Shown here: in pieces, positions 475 through 33,728 of the stretch
Position numbering within the stretch: the stretch's first letter is position 1
Layout of the letters: each line of letters opens with the position of its first letter
DNA from: a virus
DNA: 33,829 nt
Direction: 5' to 3' (one strand)
Virus record (IMG/VR): IMGVR_UViG_3300001796_000034
Span: 1 to 33,829 of that record
Translations under genes and position numbers: made by a program
The notes under the pieces: generated by a model
Seen by the model: the letters and a program-made list of their open reading frames with translations, nothing else
What the model was told of the DNA's origin: nothing
Database searches by the model: none

Positions 475-1080
475 TCATTTCCTCCCATGTACGGTTTTTG
501 TGGCCTCGTCCCACGAGACCCTATAGCCTAAATGCTCTAAGAGACTTCTAACAGGGGCGTACGTCCTCCCAGCTTGCAGCAATAGCTCTATGTCGACCTC
601 GCGCCCATCAAGCATCAAGCGTGGGCTAAGCCGCCGAGCAATCATCCCTAGAAACGCATCCCACATGGGCAGGAGCTTTGCTGGGCAGTTCTTTCGCGTC
701 CATGCTCTATGCGTCGTCACCTTATCCACGCCCCAGCCGTACCGCTGGAGTATCAGCGCAACGAGCAGCGCAGCGTGCTCGTTAGCCTTTTGTTGTCTAG
801 GGGCCTCAGTGAACTCGCAGACCCCCACACCGATGCTCTGGCGATTAGCTGCTGCGCCAGCATGCCACGCCACCTCATTTTCTGGGATGCAGTGCACAGC
901 GGCCAGGTCATCGACGACCCAGTGGTACGATACCTGAGCGGCCGGGTGGTTTTGAAAGTAGTCCCTATTGTTTCTGGCGGTGGCACCCACATTGCCGGTA
1001 TTATGAATCGTGACCGAGGTCGGCCTCAGAGAGGTTCGCGGACGGTTAGCACTGGTGATGTGCGCATTAATGATCTCCAC
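475..1080 (-). CDS. Endolysin: N-acetylmuramoyl-L-alanine amidase (Amidase_2 family)
   Basis: This 201-residue lytic enzyme cleaves the amide bond between muramic acid and L-alanine of peptidoglycan. The Amidase_2/PGRP domain covers about residues 15-150. The zinc ligand pattern of T7 lysozyme is present: His26 in TIHNT, His124 in TTHRAW and Cys132 in NCPAKL. The last 50 residues, with APVRSLLEHLGYRVSWD, resemble the copper-amine-oxidase N-terminal-like repeat found in Firmicutes wall enzymes and may bind the cell wall. The GTG at 1080 was chosen because GGAGGG lies at good spacing; the ATG at 1116 is in frame but has no better site. It overlaps the end of the preceding membrane-protein gene and is followed by the holin. 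Confidence 0.92.
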   Translation of the reverse strand: MEIINAHITSANRPRTSLRPTSVTIHNTGNVGATARNNRDYFQNHPAAQVSYHWVVDDLAAVHCIPENEVAWHAGAAANRQSIGVGVCEFTEAPRQQKANEHAALLVALILQRYGWGVDKVTTHRAWTRKNCPAKLLPMWDAFLGMIARRLSPRLMLDGREVDIELLLQAGRTYAPVRSLLEHLGYRVSWDEATKTVHGRK

Positions 1081-1324
1081 TTGTTTCCCTCCAATCGATA
1101 TGCTCTGTTTGCGCAAGGCCTAAGCGCTGCAGCTTGATCACGTTTTCGGCGCGGGCCTTCCAAGCATAGAATGCTATAGCTATGCCAGTTGGTGTGCCTA
1201 TAAATGTGAGGTAGGCGGCAAGTTGGTTCCCATCAATGATGGTCACGTATGCGCCTATACCTACGCCTACGAAGTAGGTGAGGAGCACAAGTGTCAATAC
1301 TAGCTTAGAAAACTCGAATTTCAC
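1067..1324 (-). CDS. Small two-segment membrane protein, putative second holin or antiholin
   Basis: An 85-residue protein with two predicted membrane segments (about residues 8-30 and 35-52) joined by a short polar turn, then a basic, charged C-terminal tail. This resembles class II holins or holin regulators. The GTG start is preceded by GGAGG. It lies between the DGR reverse transcriptase and the amidase and overlaps the amidase start, so it belongs to the lysis block. I do not recognise a named family. The function is inferred from topology and neighbours. Confidence 0.6.
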   Translation of the reverse strand: MKFEFSKLVLTLVLLTYFVGVGIGAYVTIIDGNQLAAYLTFIGTPTGIAIAFYAWKARAENVIKLQRLGLAQTEHIDWRETSGDH

Positions 1325-1347: not shown

Positions 1348-2385
1348 CTAGTCAGGCTCTCTCTTGCCATCTCGCTGTAGGACAAAGCCCTTAAGCAGAG
1401 TCCTCTTGAAACGATAAGAGTCGGCATGGGCAATGTGTGCCAAGTAACTTTGGACGGATGATTTAACCTCCGCGACGCCGATTTCACCACGCCCATATCG
1501 CTTCATTAGCCCTTTAAAGGCCTTTTTAATGCGCTTTTTGGCGTCGGTCTTGAGAAGCCTATGTGTCGGCCATATCCGATACCCTAGGAATCCGATACCC
1601 TTACTGATGGGGAGCACCTGCGTTTTGCTGTTCGTCTTGAGCCGGAGGCGAGCCCACAAGAACGTTTCTATCTCTTGCCGGGTACTGTGCAATTCGGCTT
1701 TGTCAGGGCCTACGATAACGAAATCATCCATGTACCTGATGTAGTACTTAACTCTCAGGCGCTCTTTTACAAAGTGGTCGAGCTCATTAAGATACACGTT
1801 GGCAAACAACTGTGAGGTCAGCGCGCCAATACCGATGCCGGTTTCGTCATGATTAGCGTCGAGCACGCGCTTAATGAGCCATAACAAGGAGGGATCTTTG
1901 ACCTTCCTCTTGACGATCTCAAGCAAAATACCCCTGTCAATCGACGGGAAATACTTCGAGATATCCCCTTTGAGACAGTAGACCTTGTCATGCTTTGCGG
2001 CGGCCTTCCTCAAATACCGGGTGAATCTGTCCACCGCCGCATGCGTGCCTTTCTGATTTCTACAGGCGTAGCTGTGTGATATAAACGTGCGGTCAAACAA
2101 TGGGCCGATCACGTTATGGATGGCATGATGCAGCACCCTGTCGCGAAATGAAGGGGCACTAATGACTCTTGGCTTAGGGACTCGAACGCAAAACTCCTTT
2201 GCTGGATGAGGGACATATGTCTTCCAGATAAGCTCGTTTTGAAGAGTGATAAGGTTCTCTTCTAGGTTTGTGGTGAACCTCATCGTCTCCCTACGGAATC
2301 GCTTGTCGCGCCTTGCTTTCAGGTATGCGCAATATAGGTTGCCGAAGTCGTAAATTTGCTCATACAGATACCCGACCCTTTTCAA
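1348..2385 (-). CDS. Diversity-generating retroelement reverse transcriptase
   Basis: A 345-residue reverse transcriptase that copies the TR RNA into mutagenised cDNA used to rewrite the VR of the target gene. Catalytic motifs are visible: the first Asp in KGDISKYF (about 139-146) and YMDD at 218-221. Motif 4 reads IGALTSQ (about 186-192), the I/V/L-GxxxSQ form typical of DGR enzymes rather than the QG form of retroviral or group II intron enzymes. There is no maturase or endonuclease domain, and the length is normal for a DGR RT. The start is TTG, preceded by GGGGGTG. The gene follows avd and TR in the same order as in phage BPP-1. Low-fidelity copying at adenines is known for the family and is supported here by the TR/VR comparison. 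Confidence 0.95.
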   Translation of the reverse strand: MKRVGYLYEQIYDFGNLYCAYLKARRDKRFRRETMRFTTNLEENLITLQNELIWKTYVPHPAKEFCVRVPKPRVISAPSFRDRVLHHAIHNVIGPLFDRTFISHSYACRNQKGTHAAVDRFTRYLRKAAAKHDKVYCLKGDISKYFPSIDRGILLEIVKRKVKDPSLLWLIKRVLDANHDETGIGIGALTSQLFANVYLNELDHFVKERLRVKYYIRYMDDFVIVGPDKAELHSTRQEIETFLWARLRLKTNSKTQVLPISKGIGFLGYRIWPTHRLLKTDAKKRIKKAFKGLMKRYGRGEIGVAEVKSSVQSYLAHIAHADSYRFKRTLLKGFVLQRDGKREPD

Positions 2386-2696
2386 GGGGCACCCCCTACA
2401 CTTGAGCTGAAGGTGGGCAGGAGGGATGTTCTTCGAGCAATCGCCTACTAAACATCCCCCTGCAATTCAAGTCTTTACCCATTTCGGGAGGGTATTAGGC
2501 CCCTTTCTCTTCGCGCGCTGTGCGACATCTCGTGAGCTGTCGCCTTCCGGCTAGAAGACAGAGCGGAGCGGAACCCAATGTTCCAGTTCGCGTTGGCGCG
2601 CGGATTGTTCAGATTCAGCGCGAAAACACCGGCGTTGGACGTATTGTTCCAGTCGCCGCCACGAAGCGGCAATAATGCGGCCTAATACCCATGGAG
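2386..2696 (-). ncRNA. DGR template RNA region (TR plus structured spacer)
   Basis: No convincing protein gene lies between avd and the RT. The region contains the 111-bp template repeat and, downstream of it on the minus strand, a roughly 175-base spacer with two hairpin-forming pairs: GCGACA/TGTCGC (2522-2527 with 2538-2543) and GGGATGTT/AACATCCC (2423-2430 with 2451-2458). In characterised DGRs the TR and the spacer before the RT are transcribed as one structured RNA that primes and templates cDNA synthesis. That role is inferred here from position; the hairpins are seen directly. An open frame across the TR that starts with TTG is a by-product of its similarity to the target gene. Confidence 0.7.
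2562..2672 (-). repeat. DGR template repeat (TR)
   Basis: This 111-bp copy corresponds to the 3' end of the target gene. Aligned with VR (3135-3245) on the coding strand it differs at 11 positions, all of them A in TR: six A to G, four or fewer A to T, and the rest A to C. TR has 21 A residues; 11 are changed in VR and none of the 90 other positions are. Mutable codons are mostly AAC/AAT, the usual design that avoids stop codons when adenines are randomised. The repeat lies between avd and the RT and is not part of a real gene. Confidence 0.97.
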
Positions 2697-3074
2697 TCAT
2701 TGCTTGGCGTTTTGAATCCATCCGCCTAGCATTCTCCCAATCTCATTGAGCTGTTTGGACCAATGCTCATATTTGCTAAACGGCAGAAACGGGCTACCTG
2801 CGGGAGCACTCTTGAGTTCGCTCGCTAACCTGACCATGGTCCTCAAAAACTGCAGCTCGATATCAATCTCCTGAAGCGTGGTTTTCTTGTGGTATTTCTT
2901 ATTGGCGGCAATAGTCAGCTTCAAGACGGTGTACATACTCTGCTTAATCTCGGCCGCCATGGTATGTCTTTCGGTCTTGGGGAACTGCTGCACGCACACG
3001 TATCCATACTGGATCATGTCGTAAATCTTCTGGGTTATAAGCATTGGTTCGACCTCAAACACCGCCCCGTCCAA
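2697..3074 (-). CDS. avd: DGR accessory protein Avd (four-helix-bundle)
   Basis: A 125-residue basic, mostly helical protein located between VR and TR. It has the length and pattern of the Avd accessory proteins, which form a pentameric four-helix-bundle barrel and bind RT and template RNA. Recognisable features are the N-terminal helix around LITQKIYDMIQYGYVCVQQF, a middle run rich in K and Q, and the C-terminal segment SKQLNEIGRMLGGWI. Avd is required for retrohoming in the BPP-1 system. The frame opens with TTG at 3074. An ATG at 3044 is an alternative start, and no strong ribosome site settles the choice. Confidence 0.9.
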   Translation of the reverse strand: MDGAVFEVEPMLITQKIYDMIQYGYVCVQQFPKTERHTMAAEIKQSMYTVLKLTIAANKKYHKKTTLQEIDIELQFLRTMVRLASELKSAPAGSPFLPFSKYEHWSKQLNEIGRMLGGWIQNAKQ

Positions 3075-3092
3075 ACCTTCGCTATCGCTCAG

Positions 3093-3112
3093 GTTTCAGA
3101 ATTCAGTGAAAC
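3093..3112 (-). other. Hairpin just downstream of VR (DGR target recognition element)
   Basis: GTTTCA and TGAAAC (3093-3098 and 3107-3112) form a 6-bp perfect stem around an 8-base loop, about 22 bases beyond the VR end. Known DGRs carry a short hairpin or cruciform downstream of the initiation-of-mutagenic-homing sequence that improves retrohoming. The stem is short, so the functional call is tentative. Confidence 0.5.
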
Positions 3113-3122
3113 AGACTACAGA

Positions 3123-4181
3123 TTACGAGATAAAAGCGGAGCGGAACCCAATGTCCCAGCCCGCGAGGGCGCGCGGATCGACCAGACTCAGCGCGAAAAC
3201 ACCGGCGTTGGACGTATTGTACCAGCCGCCGCCACGAAGCGGCAACCTTTCTGCGTTGTTTCGTACCCATAGTCCATCAGCGCCGTGGCTAGCGTCCACA
3301 GGCGCTAATCCAAGTGTCCTCATGATTTCTGGAATAGTCACTCCCGCCGCCGCTGCAGTCGGCTCAAGCGTCTTCCATAGGCTGGTGGCATCCGTTGTCG
3401 CGAACTGCACTGTATTATTGATTCGGATACCCGATGGAGCGGACGTCTCTGCGTCGTACTTCAATGTCCCCGCAGTTCCCGGAGCGACGTGGCTACCATC
3501 GGGCATGAGTGCTCGCCATAGCGCGCTTGCAGCCGATTGGTCGACGATACGGGCGGCATTATTGTTTGGGATCACCTGTATTTCCCCATGATTCAGCCGC
3601 AGTCCGCCTACCCACTCCCACACGTTGCCGTTCAGGTCATGTATGCCATCGTTGGTGCCATCATGTGCCCAGCTAGCCGGGCCGCTCCCTGTAGCACTTT
3701 TCTGCGTCCGAAACGGGGCTCCGGTTTCTACCAGCGTTGCTACGGCCCTTTCATGAGCAGCACCATGATCGGAGCCGAAATTGTTGTTGCCGCGCGGCGT
3801 CGTGTTGTTCCTTTTACTCCAAAGCGCAAGCCCCGCCCACTCCGCATTTGTCATGAGGTGCCATCCTGCGCCCTTGTTTTCGGAAAACAACTTGGCTTGG
3901 TCAAAGGTCACGCTAGTTCGCGGGTCCTTAAAAGGCAGACTGTACGCCCTGTCATTCATGACGATGTTTTGATACTTCGAGATGAAAACTTGCGGAATCT
4001 GCACGCCATCCACGACAAACATCGGGTGAGGAGCTGCGCTGCCGCCCGTTATGACATCGACAACATTAAATACAGGGACCCTCACCATAATTGATGGCAG
4101 CCCTCTATCGTCGAACAGAACTGTGTTTTTGCCGCCCGACAGAGCCTCCACGGCCAACTTCATATCGTCAAAGTTACTCAT
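3123..4181 (-). CDS. DGR target protein, FGE/C-type-lectin fold, putative receptor-binding tip
   Basis: A 352-residue protein whose C-terminal two-thirds has the formylglycine-generating-enzyme/sulfatase-modifying-factor pattern, including HDLNGNVWEWVGGL near residue 190 and the closing LPLRGGGWYN...GFRSA. This fold is a C-type lectin variant and is the usual scaffold for DGR-diversified ligands. Residues 313-349 are encoded by VR. Compared with TR, eight residues are altered: 319, 321, 332, 334, 335, 339, 341 and 343. The ATG is preceded by AAGGAGG and overlaps the end of the previous gene. It follows the baseplate and fibre genes, so it is probably displayed at the tail tip and binds host surface ligands. 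Catalytic FGE activity is not expected. Confidence 0.92.
   Translation of the reverse strand: MSNFDDMKLAVEALSGGKNTVLFDDRGLPSIMVRVPVFNVVDVITGGSAAPHPMFVVDGVQIPQVFISKYQNIVMNDRAYSLPFKDPRTSVTFDQAKLFSENKGAGWHLMTNAEWAGLALWSKRNNTTPRGNNNFGSDHGAAHERAVATLVETGAPFRTQKSATGSGPASWAHDGTNDGIHDLNGNVWEWVGGLRLNHGEIQVIPNNNAARIVDQSAASALWRALMPDGSHVAPGTAGTLKYDAETSAPSGIRINNTVQFATTDATSLWKTLEPTAAAAGVTIPEIMRTLGLAPVDASHGADGLWVRNNAERLPLRGGGWYNTSNAGVFALSLVDPRALAGWDIGFRSAFIS
3135..3245 (-). repeat. DGR variable repeat (VR)
   Basis: A 111-bp segment at the 3' end of the target gene, 100 of 111 identical to TR (2562-2672). All 11 mismatches fall at TR adenines on the coding strand. Identity runs in the 3' direction through the GC-rich IGFRSA codons, where the homing initiation site would lie, and ends ten bases before the stop codon. 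The pattern shows that the element has been active in this lineage. Confidence 0.97.
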
Positions 4182-6236: not shown

Positions 6237-7307
6237 CTACCCCTCCGTCAGCTGCACTATCCCAAGCACCGGCACCTCAAAGTGATCCCACCTTGCCGCC
6301 AACACAACATTTTGTGCCACGCCATTAAGCGTGGTATTTTGGACGTCAAGAACTGCATCGAGATTGAGTAGAAGAGACTCAACCCAGGAACTGCGCACTA
6401 CCGATTGCACGAAGGAAATACTCGCCAGATATGCGGCTATCTTATCCCTAGCTTGGGCTTCGGCCGCCGCTAGGGTGCCACCAGGCGCTAGTAGAACGGT
6501 GGCGCGCACGGAGACAGGCGCCTCTACAACAGTGGAGATAGTGACGTCGTGGCCGATAGGGGCAAGCCCGAGTCCTGTGCCTGCAGGTAGGGGATGGACA
6601 ACTTCCTGTACCTGCGCCACTAGCGTCGGGGTAGCGGGGCGCATCGACGCATCGCAAATCACGCACTGCACCTTACCCCCTTGCCCGTTAGGGGTAGGGA
6701 AGACGCGCACGCCGCCCACGCCGTGGATCTTACGCAGTTCTTGCTCGTATTGCGCTATGTTCCCGCCGAAGGGCTGCGCATTGACAGTGGCATAATACCT
6801 AGCTCGCAGCGCATCGTCGGTTTCCCCACTGAACCCCGGGATGAGGACGTCCGTCAGCGTGGCGCTGCTGATGTCAGCTACATGATCGATAGGCAGCAGC
6901 TGGCCGAAATACACGTTGCCGATTTGCCCTGCCTGCTGGCAATGCATCGCATAAGCCCCCGGTTCCAGCATCTCCTGCACCATGAATACGTGATTTCCTC
7001 CCTGCCAGCGCGTCCCCAGCGGCACGATGGCAGCGGCTCCATTACTCACAAAGATGCCACGCCGCACCGCAGCAGTAGCCGGCATGCGGTTAACCCCCAT
7101 CGCGGCACACACGCGTGTCAAATCATCTCCGCGAGCGGTGTCGGGCATGGTCGTGTCCAGCAGATTGCCTACATAGAAGTAGAGCTCCGCGAGCTGAGCC
7201 GCCATCGGCGCTAGGGCTGTGTAGATAAGGCTCCCTTCGCGAGTGTCAAGGTCGCTGGGCAGCCGGCTCATCATGTCGGCCATAATGCTCTCAAAAGTCT
7301 TTGTCAC
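6237..7307 (-). CDS. Baseplate J/gp47-like protein (XkdT type)
   Basis: A 356-residue wedge protein of the baseplate J family, homologous to P2 J, Mu gp47 and T4 gp6. Typical features are the N-terminal MTKTFESIMADMMSRLPSDLDTREGS segment, seen here as the start plus the conserved DTREGSLIYTALAPMA region, then the GFSGETDDALRARYYATV motif and the GGVRVFPTPNGQGGKVQ strand region. It joins the central hub to the sheath and fibres. It overlaps the XkdS-like gene by four bases and is followed by the YmfQ-like gene, the canonical order. Confidence 0.93.
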   Translation of the reverse strand: MTKTFESIMADMMSRLPSDLDTREGSLIYTALAPMAAQLAELYFYVGNLLDTTMPDTARGDDLTRVCAAMGVNRMPATAAVRRGIFVSNGAAAIVPLGTRWQGGNHVFMVQEMLEPGAYAMHCQQAGQIGNVYFGQLLPIDHVADISSATLTDVLIPGFSGETDDALRARYYATVNAQPFGGNIAQYEQELRKIHGVGGVRVFPTPNGQGGKVQCVICDASMRPATPTLVAQVQEVVHPLPAGTGLGLAPIGHDVTISTVVEAPVSVRATVLLAPGGTLAAAEAQARDKIAAYLASISFVQSVVRSSWVESLLLNLDAVLDVQNTTLNGVAQNVVLAARWDHFEVPVLGIVQLTEG

Positions 7308-27110: not shown

Positions 27111-27250
27111 TGCAGCTCACCTTCTAGCGCCCAGCACCTTCGCAGGCGCATGTACTTGCTTGACGCGTAGACCTTAAGTCCGGCCACGTTCGGCGTCCAC
27201 CCGTAGCGCTCGCAATCCTGCATGTACGCCCTAAGCACGCGCGCGTTCAT
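27107..27250 (-). CDS. Small hypothetical early protein (47 residues)
   Basis: A short open frame starting at the ATG that overlaps the MuB stop as ATGA and ending at a TGA that overlaps the next GTG start. It reads MNARVLRAYMQDCERYGWTP then NVAGLKVYASSKYMRLRRCW. It has a basic, helical composition. No family is recognised. The tight overlaps on both sides and lack of any alternative gene in this interval support it. Confidence 0.6.
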   Translation of the reverse strand: MNARVLRAYMQDCERYGWTPNVAGLKVYASSKYMRLRRCWALEGELQ

Positions 27251-28182
27251 CCTACCAACCTCATTTCCATATGTTTAGCCATAGCTACCAGACCTTCGTA
27301 TGTATAGTTGTCGTTATCGTAGGCGTTGGCGAAGAGGGCTGTTGCGCCCCGGATAGCCTGCGGGCTGCGAGCCAGCGCGAAAAGGAAGTCGATCTCTTTT
27401 TCCTTCTGCTCCTCAGCCAGCACCGGGAACAGTAGCTTAATGTCCTCCCGCGTAATGTGGCTGGTGCTGTAGAGCTTGCGCTGCCGGGTGCGGTTGGCAA
27501 TCTGCGCGAACTCCGCCTTCTTGGTGCCGCCAAAGCGCGTAACCGTTTCGCTGTTGCCTACAAAAACTACGCCTAGCGTCAGGCCGCGCTCCGCAAAGTG
27601 GTCACTCAGCGCCCGCAGCGCCTCAACCGTGCGAATCGGCAAATGCTGCGCTTCGTCAAAGATTAGTACCATGCCGTCACGCAGCTTCCCGGCAATCCCT
27701 AGCCACATCTCGTCAATCGTCCGCTCGGTGACATTTAGCCGGTGGCATAGCAGTTTTAACAGCGATTTTAATGTCGTTAAACAGGGGTTTAGAGATATGT
27801 ATATAGCTCCGTCGGGGTTATCCGCTACGAACTTCTGCGCCGCTTTGGTCTTGCCAATCCCCGCGTCCCCGCAGGCGATGGCTAGGCCTCCTTGCAGCTG
27901 GCAGTTGCGGATCGTCTCGTAGACGCGCTCAGAGATGGATGTCGGCGCGTAGTCTGCCGCTACGAACTTGAGTGCGTTCCTTGCCTCTTCCTTAACCTTA
28001 AAGTAGCTGAGCAGCTTCTGTAGCTGCGCGTCCTTGTCGCCGGCGTAAGTCCCTTTCTTTAGCGGCGACATAATTGCGGCATTAATCCCCACCTGCTGGC
28101 AGGCCTTGTTCTGGCTGCCCAGCCGCGCGGCCAGAGCGTCAAACTGCTCTAGCGCCCACCTTTGTTCTGCCGTGTACTCCAC
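27247..28182 (-). CDS. MuB-like AAA+ transposition target protein
   Basis: A 311-residue ATPase. An N-terminal helix-turn-helix-like region (about residues 5-45) is followed by a AAA+ domain with Walker A GDAGIGKT (105-112) and Walker B VLIFDEAQ (172-179), then the sensor region VFVGNSETVTRF. MuB-type proteins bind target DNA and activate MuA. The domain order matches MuB. It lies downstream of the transposase, separated by 16 bases, the conserved AB order. Confidence 0.93.
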   Translation of the reverse strand: MEYTAEQRWALEQFDALAARLGSQNKACQQVGINAAIMSPLKKGTYAGDKDAQLQKLLSYFKVKEEARNALKFVAADYAPTSISERVYETIRNCQLQGGLAIACGDAGIGKTKAAQKFVADNPDGAIYISLNPCLTTLKSLLKLLCHRLNVTERTIDEMWLGIAGKLRDGMVLIFDEAQHLPIRTVEALRALSDHFAERGLTLGVVFVGNSETVTRFGGTKKAEFAQIANRTRQRKLYSTSHITREDIKLLFPVLAEEQKEKEIDFLFALARSPQAIRGATALFANAYDNDNYTYEGLVAMAKHMEMRLVG

Positions 28183-28198: not shown

Positions 28199-30196
28199 TT
28201 AGGTTCTTTTCCTCCGTTCTTCGGCGTTGCGGTTCATGCGTTGCATATCTATAACTACCCCGGTGGCATCGCCCACAGCCTGCTGTAGGCGCTCCTTCTC
28301 CTCGTTAGCCCGCACGGGGATAATTACCTTGGGCGGCTGAATTACCATACCTACCTTGCCGAGCTCCGCGCGCCTCTTCTGCAGGTCGAACATGTCAATC
28401 TGGCGGTCGGTCGGCAGCTGCGAGATGTAATCTTTGAGCTTGCCCTTCACGGCCTTCTTCACGCGCCTAATCTGTTCTTGGGCAATAGCCACTTCCTCAC
28501 CCGGCGACGCGAAGAACAAAGTAGTCTCAAGCGCCATCGGCACACTGCACAAGTACTTGTCCGTCTCCGCCTCGTACAGCCGCACACTGGCCAGATTTGC
28601 CGGATCGTAGCGCACATACACGTCCTTGCCGCGCATCCAGATCAGCTCTTCGCTGTCGTACTCTAGCCTCTCGCCGCTCACCGTGATATACACGCCCCTC
28701 CGGCCTACCTTCTGCAGTCGGCTGCTGCGCATTAGCATTAGAGCCAAGTCATCTTCCGTGGCCGTGCGCATGCCGACGTTCTGTATGCTCTCGTTCCAGA
28801 CCTCAATCCGCGTCTTGCCCTTATCCCTCTTCACCGGCCCGCCGTAAAGCCCCACGTTGTAGATGCCGTCAATCGCGTCTCCGACAAACCGGCGTATGCT
28901 GCTGTCTAGCGGCACGTCGCCTCGCTTAAGTGTGGCCTTAAGGCTCTCCGGCTTCTCTAGCACGTTGCCGCCGGTAAAGGTCTCACACACGCGCGATACT
29001 ATGTTTTTCAAGGTGCCAAATGTCCGCTCGATGGGCTTGGCCTTGGCGTTACGCACGATGGCGTTAGTCATCTCGATGCCAAGCCGCGTGAAGATAGGCG
29101 GGGGACTGCTCATTAGGTCTTTGTTCTTGCGGCTCCGGTGGCCTTTGCCGCCAATGTCGTGACATAAGAACTCTAAACCGTTATCTACGTAAATGTGGCG
29201 CGGTATGCCAAAGCGGTTAATAGCGTGTCTTAGTGCCAGCAAGGTTGACTGCGAGCACGGGGTGTCTGTCAAATTCCAGCCGACCATCACGCCGCTTCGC
29301 GCATCGATAAAAGCCGTCAGGCTCAAGCGGTGCTGCACCTCGCTGCCGTCATCGCGCTGCGAAATGATATCGAGCGTGTGGTTGTCCGCTACCCAGTAGT
29401 CGTTGGCGTTAAGATCGTCGTAGAGCCTGGTGATGTATGGCGCGCATCTTTCCTCATACGTCTTCATGCCCTTGCGGCCCATCGTCACCACAGCCTGCTC
29501 AAGCTTGCCCGCCAACCGCCTAAATGCTTTCTCGTGCGGCACCACCGCATCCGGCTCAAAGATTCTGGCCCACTCCTGCGTAAGCTGGTAGCACTGCGTC
29601 ACAGGCAGGCAGCGCTCGTCTAAAAAGAAGCCGACAAAAGCATTCCACAAGGTCGTTGGCACTGTGGTTTGTCCGCGGTTCCACCCGCCGCGCCGGTCTA
29701 CCAAGCCCTCTAAGTCCCCGGCCTTTACCGCCTGCCAGCGGCGGTACAAGATGCTCACGCTAATGTCTAAGTCCGGATACTGCTTCTTCATCGCATCAAC
29801 AAAGAGCTTGTCCGCGTCTGTCTGCCGCTCATAACCCGCCCTGTACTCCTGCCAGCCCTTAACTATCTGCGTCCAGAGCGCTATCTGCTCGCGCTCCTCG
29901 GCGCTAAACTCGTCAAAGGCTCGCCTGCGCTCAGGCTCCTGCGCCGGTGCCTTGGCCCGCTTTCGTGGCGCGACCGGCTCCGGCTCCGGCAAGTCTTTGG
30001 GCTTCTGCTGCTCCAAGTAGCGTAGCTGCAGGTCAGCAGGGAGGGTTCTAAGAGGGATCATGTACTGAACACGGTTATTGCGCGGAGCTTCGTGAGGCTC
30101 CGAAAGGAGTCTGCCCTCGCTGATCGCGAGTTGCACTGCCCGCTCGCTACACCTCATCAGTTGCGCCACCTGCTTAACCGTCAATAACTCGTCCAT
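28199..30196 (-). CDS. MuA-type DDE transposase
   Basis: A 665-residue transposase. Residues 1-50 hold an N-terminal DNA-binding domain (LTVKQVAQLMRCSERAVQLA). The catalytic triad sits at D271 (VADNHTLD), D338 (YVDNGLEF) and E390 (PIERTFGTLK), close to D269/D336/E392 in MuA. A Mu-type C-terminal beta-barrel and tail follow, with KDVYVRYDPANLASVRLYE near residue 530. It cuts and joins phage ends during lysogenisation and replicative transposition. The ribosome site is GGCAGGTGA and the start is ATG. Two hairpins lie just upstream (30219-30258). Confidence 0.96.
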   Translation of the reverse strand: MDELLTVKQVAQLMRCSERAVQLAISEGRLLSEPHEAPRNNRVQYMIPLRTLPADLQLRYLEQQKPKDLPEPEPVAPRKRAKAPAQEPERRRAFDEFSAEEREQIALWTQIVKGWQEYRAGYERQTDADKLFVDAMKKQYPDLDISVSILYRRWQAVKAGDLEGLVDRRGGWNRGQTTVPTTLWNAFVGFFLDERCLPVTQCYQLTQEWARIFEPDAVVPHEKAFRRLAGKLEQAVVTMGRKGMKTYEERCAPYITRLYDDLNANDYWVADNHTLDIISQRDDGSEVQHRLSLTAFIDARSGVMVGWNLTDTPCSQSTLLALRHAINRFGIPRHIYVDNGLEFLCHDIGGKGHRSRKNKDLMSSPPPIFTRLGIEMTNAIVRNAKAKPIERTFGTLKNIVSRVCETFTGGNVLEKPESLKATLKRGDVPLDSSIRRFVGDAIDGIYNVGLYGGPVKRDKGKTRIEVWNESIQNVGMRTATEDDLALMLMRSSRLQKVGRRGVYITVSGERLEYDSEELIWMRGKDVYVRYDPANLASVRLYEAETDKYLCSVPMALETTLFFASPGEEVAIAQEQIRRVKKAVKGKLKDYISQLPTDRQIDMFDLQKRRAELGKVGMVIQPPKVIIPVRANEEKERLQQAVGDATGVVIDMQRMNRNAEERRKRT

Positions 30197-30218
30197 GTCA
30201 TCACCTGCCTCATCAGTA

Positions 30219-30258
30219 CCGGGAGGTTACCTCCGGCAGACGGGGAGCTTGTCCCCGT
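30219..30258 (-). other. Paired hairpins upstream of the transposase gene
   Basis: Two short inverted repeats lie between the 42-residue gene and the transposase start: ACGGGGA with TCCCCGT (30240-30246 and 30252-30258) and CCGG-AGG with CCTCCGG (30219-30236). Neither is followed by a T run on the minus strand. They could slow or regulate translation or transcription of the transposase. Direct observation; function inferred. Confidence 0.45.
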
Positions 30259-30268
30259 TTCGGCTGTC

Positions 30269-31592: not shown

Positions 31593-31622
31593 CCCCCCCA
31601 CACCCCGGCCAGCCCCGGGGCT
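31593..31622. repeat. 30-bp direct repeat, left copy
   Basis: A GC-rich sequence with a C7 run, ACACCCCGGCCAG and the palindrome AGCCCCGGGGCT. It is repeated exactly at 31969-31998, 376 bp away. On the minus strand this copy leads into the ribosome site of the 50-residue gene. The bases after both copies are also partly similar, suggesting an old duplication of the segment. Confidence 0.9.
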
Positions 31623-31672
31623 CTCTTCGATTTGCTCTGACCATTTGCCAAGTAGAGTGACCACATGCAACA

Positions 31673-31942
31673 ACTGAGGATAAGGGGAACACGAGAGACA
31701 ACGCCGAGCCAAGCCCACAGACAGCGCTTCTTCGCGGTAGCACACATGGCGAGCTCCTTAGCAGAACAGCAGCGCAGAATGGTCGGATTCGCTGACCTTG
31801 CCAGTGGCGCGACTGCAGTACAACGTGCGTTCCCGGATCACGTCACTAGAAATGGGGTGTTAACTGCCCCGCTGTGCGGTAACGCACAGGCCATAACTCC
31901 GTAAAGTCGGCGAACCCCTCTCGTGTTCCCCTTATCCTCAGT
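31673..31942. repeat. 270-bp element bounded by perfect 25-bp inverted repeats
   Basis: The 25 bases at 31673-31697 (starting ACTGAGGATAAGGGG) are the exact reverse complement of 31918-31942. Between them lie 220 bases without a convincing gene. The inner part holds further hairpins, including CTGTGCG/CGCACAG around a GTAA loop near 31872-31889. No clear target-site duplication flanks the repeats. It could be a miniature transposon, or part of a structured early transcript. The inverted repeat is seen directly and the rest is inference. Confidence 0.8.
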
Positions 31943-31968
31943 AGAAGCTCCTGCCTCTCGCACCTCTC

Positions 31969-31998
31969 CCCCCCCACACCCCGGCCAGCCCCGGGGCT
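31969..31998. repeat. 30-bp direct repeat, right copy
   Basis: Second exact copy of the repeat at 31593-31622. Both copies lie outside the inverted-repeat element, with unequal spacing (50 and 26 bases), so they are not a target duplication. This copy is followed on the plus strand by TTTTCCC, so the palindrome AGCCCCGGGGCT could be a weak terminator for plus-strand RNA. Confidence 0.9.
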
Positions 31999-32412: not shown

Positions 32413-32447
32413 TAGGTTTCTTGTAGATAAATGCTGCAAGGTCTTGC

Positions 32448-32473
32448 TATAATGAATTGTCGGAAATACCGAC
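32448..32473 (+). promoter_or_regulatory. Repressor promoter -10 and palindromic operator
   Basis: A perfect TATAAT (32448-32453) preceded by TGC forms an extended -10. Just downstream the palindrome GTCGG-AAATA-CCGAC (32459-32473) matches the half-site GACGGAAATAC repeated at 32360, 32392 and 32128. The S24 repressor probably autoregulates here. Confidence 0.7.
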
Positions 32474-32496
32474 TTTTCGGAAGGGGTGAGGCTTTT

Positions 32497-33111
32497 GTGA
32501 GCATCGGTAAGAAGGTCAAGGAAATCCGCAACCAACACGGCTTGACACAGTATGAGTTGGCCCGAAAGGCTAATATATCTCGGTCTTACCTCGGGGACAT
32601 CGAAGGAGGTCGATATAACCCAAGCGTGGAGACCTTGCGATGTATTGCAGAGGCTCTCTCCCAGCCATTGTCCGCGTTTTTTGATGGTGCTACGCCTCAG
32701 CCGGCGTCTTCACGAGCTGTTCGTGTTCCGGTGTTGGGGAGGGTGCCAGCAGGTATAGCACTTGAAGCCATTGAAGATGTGCTCGACTGGGAAGAAATAC
32801 CCATTGAGTGGACTAAGGGGAACCGGCAGTTCTTTGCCTTGAAGCTGCGCGGCGATAGCATGATGCCTAAGTACTTAGATGATGACGTTATAATAGTAGA
32901 GAGAACGGACACAGCCGAAAACGGACAGGACGCAGTCATCATCATCAACGGCCATGATGCTACTTTTAAGCGAGTCCTCGTAAATGAGAATGGAATCATC
33001 CTGATGCCAATCAACACCGCCTATCAACCACACTTTTTTTCTAAGTCTGATGTGCAGCGGTTGCCGGTCACGATCATGGGTGTGTGCAGAGAAATCCGCC
33101 GCAAACCATAG
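32497..33111 (+). CDS. LexA/CI-type phage repressor with S24 peptidase domain
   Basis: A 204-residue repressor. The N-terminal XRE helix-turn-helix covers about residues 3-60 (GLTQYELARKANISRSYLGD). The self-cleavage site is Ala85-Gly86 in VPAG. The S24 domain has catalytic Ser121 in RGDSMMP and Lys158 in DATFKRV. RecA-stimulated cleavage under DNA damage would induce the prophage; Mu repressor is instead ClpX/ClpP-controlled, so induction differs. GTG at 32497 was chosen because GGAAGGGGTGAG precedes it. It reads toward the phage left end, as c does in Mu. Confidence 0.95.
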   Translation: MSIGKKVKEIRNQHGLTQYELARKANISRSYLGDIEGGRYNPSVETLRCIAEALSQPLSAFFDGATPQPASSRAVRVPVLGRVPAGIALEAIEDVLDWEEIPIEWTKGNRQFFALKLRGDSMMPKYLDDDVIIVERTDTAENGQDAVIIINGHDATFKRVLVNENGIILMPINTAYQPHFFSKSDVQRLPVTIMGVCREIRRKP

Positions 33112-33560: not shown

Positions 33561-33728
33561 TTGACACGCAAAATGCAAAACCCAACCGGGCTTTGCACGT
33601 CTTCCAGTTTTTTCACGCCTAAATAACGTTGATATTGCTGGGTTTCTCGGGTCTATTCCTGATTATCTCGCCTTTTTACGCCTAATTTCGGTTCACACTC
33701 TTTTTTGCATTCTGCACGTCAATTCACA
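33561..33728. repeat. Mu-like left end (attL-like) with transposase-binding sites and terminus
   Basis: TTGACACGCAAAATGCAAAA (33561-33580) and the inverted TTGACGTGCAGAATGCAAAA (within 33701-33722) match the sites at 1-40. Two further repeats TTTTTCACGCCTAAA (609-623 of this block) and TTTTTACGCCTAATT (33673-33687) lie between. Reading inward on the minus strand, the element begins TGTGAATTGACG, so the TG...CA terminus expected of Mu-like phages falls at 33728. This arrangement suggests three or more recognition sites, as in Mu attL. Confidence 0.7.

Follow-up and report, generated by a model that had tools for sequence, protein, structure and literature searches.

A complete diversity-generating retroelement with adenine-only repeat differences in a Mu-like transposable phage

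The phage and its DGR cassette

The window, the whole stretch of DNA that was analysed, is 33,829 bp long and is identical with the IMG/VR record. The genes and ends that place the diversity-generating retroelement (DGR) in a transposable phage are:

1..40 (+): left phage end with two 18-bp end repeats, GACGCGCAAAACGCAAAA, found by repeat search
475..1116 (-): endolysin (amidase), in the interval that separates the DGR from the left phage end; phrog_3088 7.8e-38
6237..7307 (-): baseplate J-like protein of the tail operon leading into the DGR target; Baseplate_J 1.1e-49
27247..28182 (-): MuB-like AAA ATPase; AAA_22 7.7e-13, phrog_296 'DNA transposition protein' 7e-51
28199..30196 (-): MuA-like DDE transposase, 665 aa; Mu-transpos_C 1e-11, DDE_2 1.3e-05, phrog_310 7.4e-97
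32431..33111 (+): CI-like repressor, at the end nearer MuA; phrog_4 3.7e-32
33563..33728 (.): right phage end, with 18-bp repeats at 33563-33580 (+) and 33703-33720 (-)

The 18-bp repeat occurred at four sites, distributed over both ends in an inverted arrangement, where 0.21 were expected by chance. The right tip was predicted at about position 33728, and the record seems to lack a few of the outermost tip bases at the left end; the phage would have TG...CA tips. The first-pass annotation had described a Mu-like phage of Firmicutes. The first term is borne out by MuA, MuB, the repressor and the end repeats, but not by the head and tail genes, which are of the SPP1-portal/PBSX-like contractile type and unlike Mu's own. 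The assignment to Firmicutes is drawn from the relatives; only about 100 bp of host flank, beyond the right tip, is included in the record.

Two other repeat structures were seen. Directly inside the left end (38-84) there is a 20-bp perfect inverted repeat with a 7-nt loop and a T run, probably a terminator. Near the opposite end, a 25-bp perfect inverted repeat (31673-31697 and 31918-31942, 220 bp apart) lies between the two copies of a 30-bp perfect direct repeat (31593-31622 and 31969-31998), and the structure as a whole, 31593-31998, looks like a small inserted element.

The DGR comprises the following parts:

1348..2385 (-): DGR reverse transcriptase (RT), 345 aa; RVT_1 1.3e-19, phrog_1423 2.8e-138
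2417..2563 (-): structured RNA of the TR-RT spacer, Rfam RT-14 (RF02921); 63.2 bits against a gathering threshold of 48.1, E 1.5e-06
2562..2672 (-): template repeat (TR), with 21 adenines and nine AAY codons
2697..3074 (-): avd, accessory variability determinant; Pfam bAvd 5.4e-36, NCBIfam DivGenRetAVD
3123..4181 (-): DGR target, 352 aa, with a TaqVP-like C-type-lectin/FGE fold, a probable tail adhesin; profile and structure matches
3135..3245 (-): variable repeat (VR), target residues 313-349, 90% identical to TR

The cassette is complete and of the Avd type, and its order is target-avd-TR-spacer RNA-RT, all on the minus strand. The BPP-1-like order target-avd-TR-RT that had been proposed agrees with the BPP-1 annotation. 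Avd matched NF033474 (DivGenRetAVD) with 123.1 bits, above the curated cut-off of 80; the TTG start of the avd reading frame is perhaps not the real one, and an in-frame ATG lies shortly downstream. The RT has an intact active site, with the motifs GALTSQ (the DGR-type GxxxSQ) and YMDD. The A at RT position 188, giving GALTSQ rather than GNLTSQ, was considered as a mark of inactivation and rejected, because six listed RTs share it, some of the loci that do so show adenine-dominated TR/VR differences, and BPP-1 itself has GSLTSQ.

Repeats, template RNA and hairpin

TR and VR, both 111 nt long, have 11 mismatched positions, every one of which is an adenine in TR. Thus 11 of the 21 TR adenines were altered and none of the 90 other positions (hypergeometric 7.5e-10), with A to G seven times, A to T three times and A to C once. 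The repeat coordinates, length and counts in the first-pass annotation, and the adenine-only pattern, were exact, and its eight altered codons, said to be mostly AAC/AAT, were counted as seven AAY (Asn) codons and one GAC. All 21 TR adenines occupy codon positions 1 or 2, and no randomisation of them can produce a stop codon. At their 3' ends the repeats share an identical final 20 nt, the likeness stops at the 111th base, and VR ends 12 nt short of the end of the target gene.

The same bias was found in related loci, which were admitted only if at least 70% of their differences fell at A: 902 of 959 TR/VR differences at 76 loci, and 536 of 559 in a second set of 42 loci passed through the same filter. 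IMG/VR was searched for a second copy of VR or of the exact TR/VR pattern, and for the left end of the phage; no exact match to any of them was obtained. Because the 90 non-adenine positions hold no change, the last homing event would have been recent on the scale of ordinary mutation, an implication that concerns that event and not present-day homing.

The repeats could instead be a drifted duplicated gene end lying beside an unrelated RT of the group II intron or defence type, and the RT does weakly resemble those of group II introns (TIGR04416, 147 bits, below the cut-off of 300). This explanation is refuted by the substitution pattern and its probability is negligible: the differences are adenine-only (7.5e-10), Avd scores above its curated cut-off, the RT-14 RNA is present, and dozens of homologous cassettes have the same adenine pattern.

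A long-range helix was found to join the sequence preceding TR to the spacer RNA:

2679..2690 (-): 5' arm of the TR-flanking helix, GGGUAUUAGGCC; helix search and covariation
2490..2501 (-): 3' arm, within the spacer, GGCCUAAUACCC; helix search and covariation

The search covered pairings between the 30 nt 5' of TR and the spacer in 76 related DGRs. A 12-bp helix occurred at corresponding sites in most of the 76, with a mean score of 13.5 compared with 8.9 for shuffled sequences. Covariation was computed for 49 of these DGRs, aligned by sequence only. Taken jointly with the first spacer hairpin, the TR-flanking helix gave 0.668, versus 0.249 in shuffles and at most 0.197 in slid controls, and 11 of the 12 long-range pairs in the 49-sequence alignment had changed on both sides. 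The helix is absent from the Rfam RT-14 model, in which the spacer arm stays mostly unpaired, its pairing partner lying beyond TR. Since the helix covaries, the TR transcript appears to be under selection as a structured RNA. In BPP-1 the best comparable helix was low-scoring, yet it was found at the same place, spacer 54-65, adjoining the priming adenine, A56. A strongly covarying helix that closes TR in DGR RNAs is a by-product of this work that may outlast its main finding.

The cassette has one further element, downstream of VR:

3073..3096 (-): hairpin/cruciform 3' of VR with a GATA (GRNA) loop; stem AAACCT-GA-GC/GC-GA-AGGTTT

In BPP-1, homing requires a hairpin after VR, and disruption of the stem cut tropism switching over 1000-fold; phage DGR hairpins have GC-rich stems of 7-10 bp and GRNA loops (Guo et al. 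2011; PMC3240598). The hairpin in the window has the GATA loop in the right place and 8 pairs, together with two adjacent G.A mismatches in the stem. Its DNA folding energy was -4.7 kcal/mol, versus -8.6 to -11.4 kcal/mol in relatives, that is, about half or less. A perfect VR-hairpin stem of at least 6 bp was present in 50 of the 76 relatives, where about 4 were expected.

Because of the two mismatches, homing is possibly less efficient. The extreme case would be a DGR that was silenced recently, all of its parts still being present and homing now being rare through degradation of the VR hairpin, and the mismatches, the low folding energy and the need of BPP-1 for the stem in efficient homing (PMC3240598) all speak for it. 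However, the absence of differences at 90 non-adenine positions leaves little time since homing, and RT, Avd and the spacer RNA are intact. Moreover, adjacent sheared G.A pairs can be stable, and the related locus L149 has the same kind of stem with a comparable double mismatch, so that the mismatch may be tolerated. Silencing is therefore considered rather unlikely. The weak hairpin lowers confidence in present activity, but not in the identity of the element as a DGR. The description of the DGR as active-looking, made earlier, is sound as regards the intact Avd and RT (YMDD) and the recent homing that the repeats imply; the activity itself was read from a single sequence, whose VR hairpin is less stable than those of its relatives.

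The target protein and the proposed cycle

The target matched Pfam FGE-sulfatase (9.5e-07) and phrog_2889 (2.1e-128), and its C-terminus matched a PHROG tail protein (phrog_5302, 6e-12). Its AlphaFold model had a pLDDT of 95.3. The best solved match was TaqVP (5vf4), with E values of 2.4e-44 by Foldseek and 2.6e-74 by phmmer, and superposition on TaqVP (VIA) gave a Z of 54.1 and an rmsd of 1.6 Å over 350 residues. Mtd of BPP-1 and TvpA were matched at Z 12-13, on par with FGE enzymes; as these values are no higher than those of the enzymes, Mtd and TvpA share with the target the lectin/FGE part of the fold. The variable residues of TaqVP form a putative ligand site at its C-terminus (PMC6328139). 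Through the link to the solved TaqVP scaffold, the varied residues of the target can be mapped to a binding site that is already known.

The target gene comes directly after the baseplate and tail genes and before the lysis genes. Since it follows the baseplate and tail genes, a tail adhesin is the likeliest role of the target, which would then be carried on the tail tip and would select the host receptor. An active DGR might also diversify, rather than a host-receptor adhesin, a different binding protein with an FGE/EgtB-like fold, surface-exposed or enzyme-like, belonging to either the lysogen or the virion. The Pfam name of the fold, FGE-sulfatase, would suit such a protein, and the DGR of the phage Mushu targets a Hoc-like capsid protein (PMC5883640). 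This is quite improbable in view of the gene's position between tail and lysis genes, the match of its C-terminus to a PHROG tail protein, and the structural matches, the best of which is the variable protein of a prophage DGR, Mtd being matched too.

Taken as a whole, it is highly probable that the locus is an Avd-type DGR, a cargo module within a Mu-like transposable (pro)phage, and that it diversifies a target with the TaqVP fold by adenine-mutagenic homing. In the proposed cycle the TR-spacer RNA, held by the helix that joins the pre-TR sequence to the spacer, would bind the RT-Avd complex. The RT would copy TR and err opposite adenines, and the cDNA would replace VR at the 3' end of the target gene, aided by the shared 3' end of TR and VR and by the hairpin after VR. 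The varied residues, which correspond to nine Asn codons together with Asp, Thr and Ile codons, would be displayed on the C-terminal lectin site of the target. If homing is ongoing, progeny phages would differ in binding through this varied site.

A more ambitious joint reading holds that transpositional replication is mechanically coupled to diversification and that the TR-flanking helix, the covarying helix seen across some 50 DGRs, is a shared core of DGR template RNAs. Replication of the Mu type that begins at the MuA/repressor end would cross the target gene co-directionally with transcription, an orientation that has been reported as favoured for DGR editing (PMC12875486). Each copy made in lytic growth could then gain its own VR, and the burst would consist of differently tipped virions. 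As a combined proposal this is improbable.

Related phages and the transposase leader

The carriage of a DGR by a transposable phage of Firmicutes, put forward at first as a novelty, has precedents. To judge from the title of Toussaint 2013, as cited in PMC5883640, DGRs in Mu-like Firmicutes phages had been reported before, and BalMu-1, YPCBV-1 (another transposable DGR phage), Mushu and the hankyphage can be added. The present phage is a clean and complete new example of a well-documented kind of DGR, not a new kind.

BalMu-1, a Mu-like phage of Bacillus alcalophilus, has a MuA-like transposase (37-39% identity), the order target-avd-TR-RT followed by lysis genes, an FGE-fold target and an RT-14 spacer RNA; its target and RT are only 44% and 46% identical, respectively, and no hammerhead ribozyme scored over threshold near its MuA. 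The TaqVP DGR (5vf4), from a Thermus aquaticus prophage, is alike in target fold and length, in its C-terminal VR and in the order avd-TR-RT, but the target is about 40% identical and both host and phage are different. BPP-1 of Bordetella (Mtd, bAvd, bRT) resembles the present DGR in gene order, Avd, RT, adenine mutagenesis and the GRNA-loop hairpin after VR. However, BPP-1 is not transposable, its spacer belongs to Rfam Phage_DGR (RF03022) rather than RT-14, and Mtd has extra domains and matches the target at a Z of only about 12. Mushuvirus mushu of Faecalibacterium prausnitzii is likewise a transposable Firmicutes phage with a DGR and Avd; it is the phage in which a Hoc-like capsid protein is the DGR target and VR variation was seen in virion reads (PMC5883640). 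The hankyphage of Bacteroides combines Mu-like transposition with a DGR having adenine-only differences (PMC6199706), although in a different host phylum.

MuA relatives were collected by an alignment-based search, which gave 51; the transposase as a lone query gave none. The closest targets (60-67% identity) were found in Desulforamulus, in Bacillota bins and in one virus contig. For MuA, neither the Desulforamulus genome nor the virus record gave a match; of the two bins one gave none, and the other gave only a distant one (28% identity), located on other contigs. Among 12 virus records that hold related targets, a MuA match was obtained in only 3. Conversely, a match to the RT was missing in 4 of 5 close MuA relatives searched, some of these records being fragments. 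Since most phages with related targets lacked a recognisable MuA, and most of the MuA relatives searched lacked an RT match, the DGR is a plug-in, swappable module of tail operons. The block target-avd-TR-RT is common to many phages that gave no MuA match, and its presence in a transposable phage is no special marriage. The earlier suggestion that the diversifier moves through genomes by transposition is therefore retained in a restricted form, namely that the DGR travels as cargo of the phage; many phages without a MuA match also hold the module, and an RT was not seen in several close MuA relatives.

Copies of a related DGR phage in Anaerovorax sp. IOR16 (L101, L102, L105) illustrate both gain and loss. 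Three right ends were joined to three different host sequences; the left end, sought by the end motif, was not found. VR was identical in two copies. The third copy had lost avd via VR-TR recombination, leaving behind a fusion of the two repeats in which three new differences had arisen, each of them at A. These copies indicate that transposition multiplies the DGR and that recombination between VR and TR can destroy it.

A separate observation concerns the leader of the transposase gene. A type II hammerhead ribozyme (30199-30265 (-)) ends 3 nt before the MuA start codon. It was the single hammerhead-II in the record and matched the covariance model with 48.9 bits against a gathering threshold of 37; none was found in 14 control genomes. 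The evidence is this covariance-model match, since RNA folding alone gave no strong signal (z -0.98). A literature search for the combination of hammerhead ribozyme, transposase and Mu-like returned no paper. The ribozyme loci considered were that of the window, L181-L201, L085 and L180. Of the 20 closest MuA loci that were scanned, 17 had a hammerhead upstream of MuA and on the same strand, and the ribozyme lay within 60 nt of the MuA match in 12 of the 22 MuA relatives having an upstream one. At one locus of the second batch the hammerhead was replaced by a twister-P5 upstream of MuA, and at one MuA locus of the first batch a twister-sister was present in addition. Within this phage group, a self-cleaving leader on the transposase transcript seems to be conserved, and the occurrence of self-cleaving ribozymes 5' of MuA in most close relatives is, like the TR-closing helix, a by-product that may outlast the main finding.
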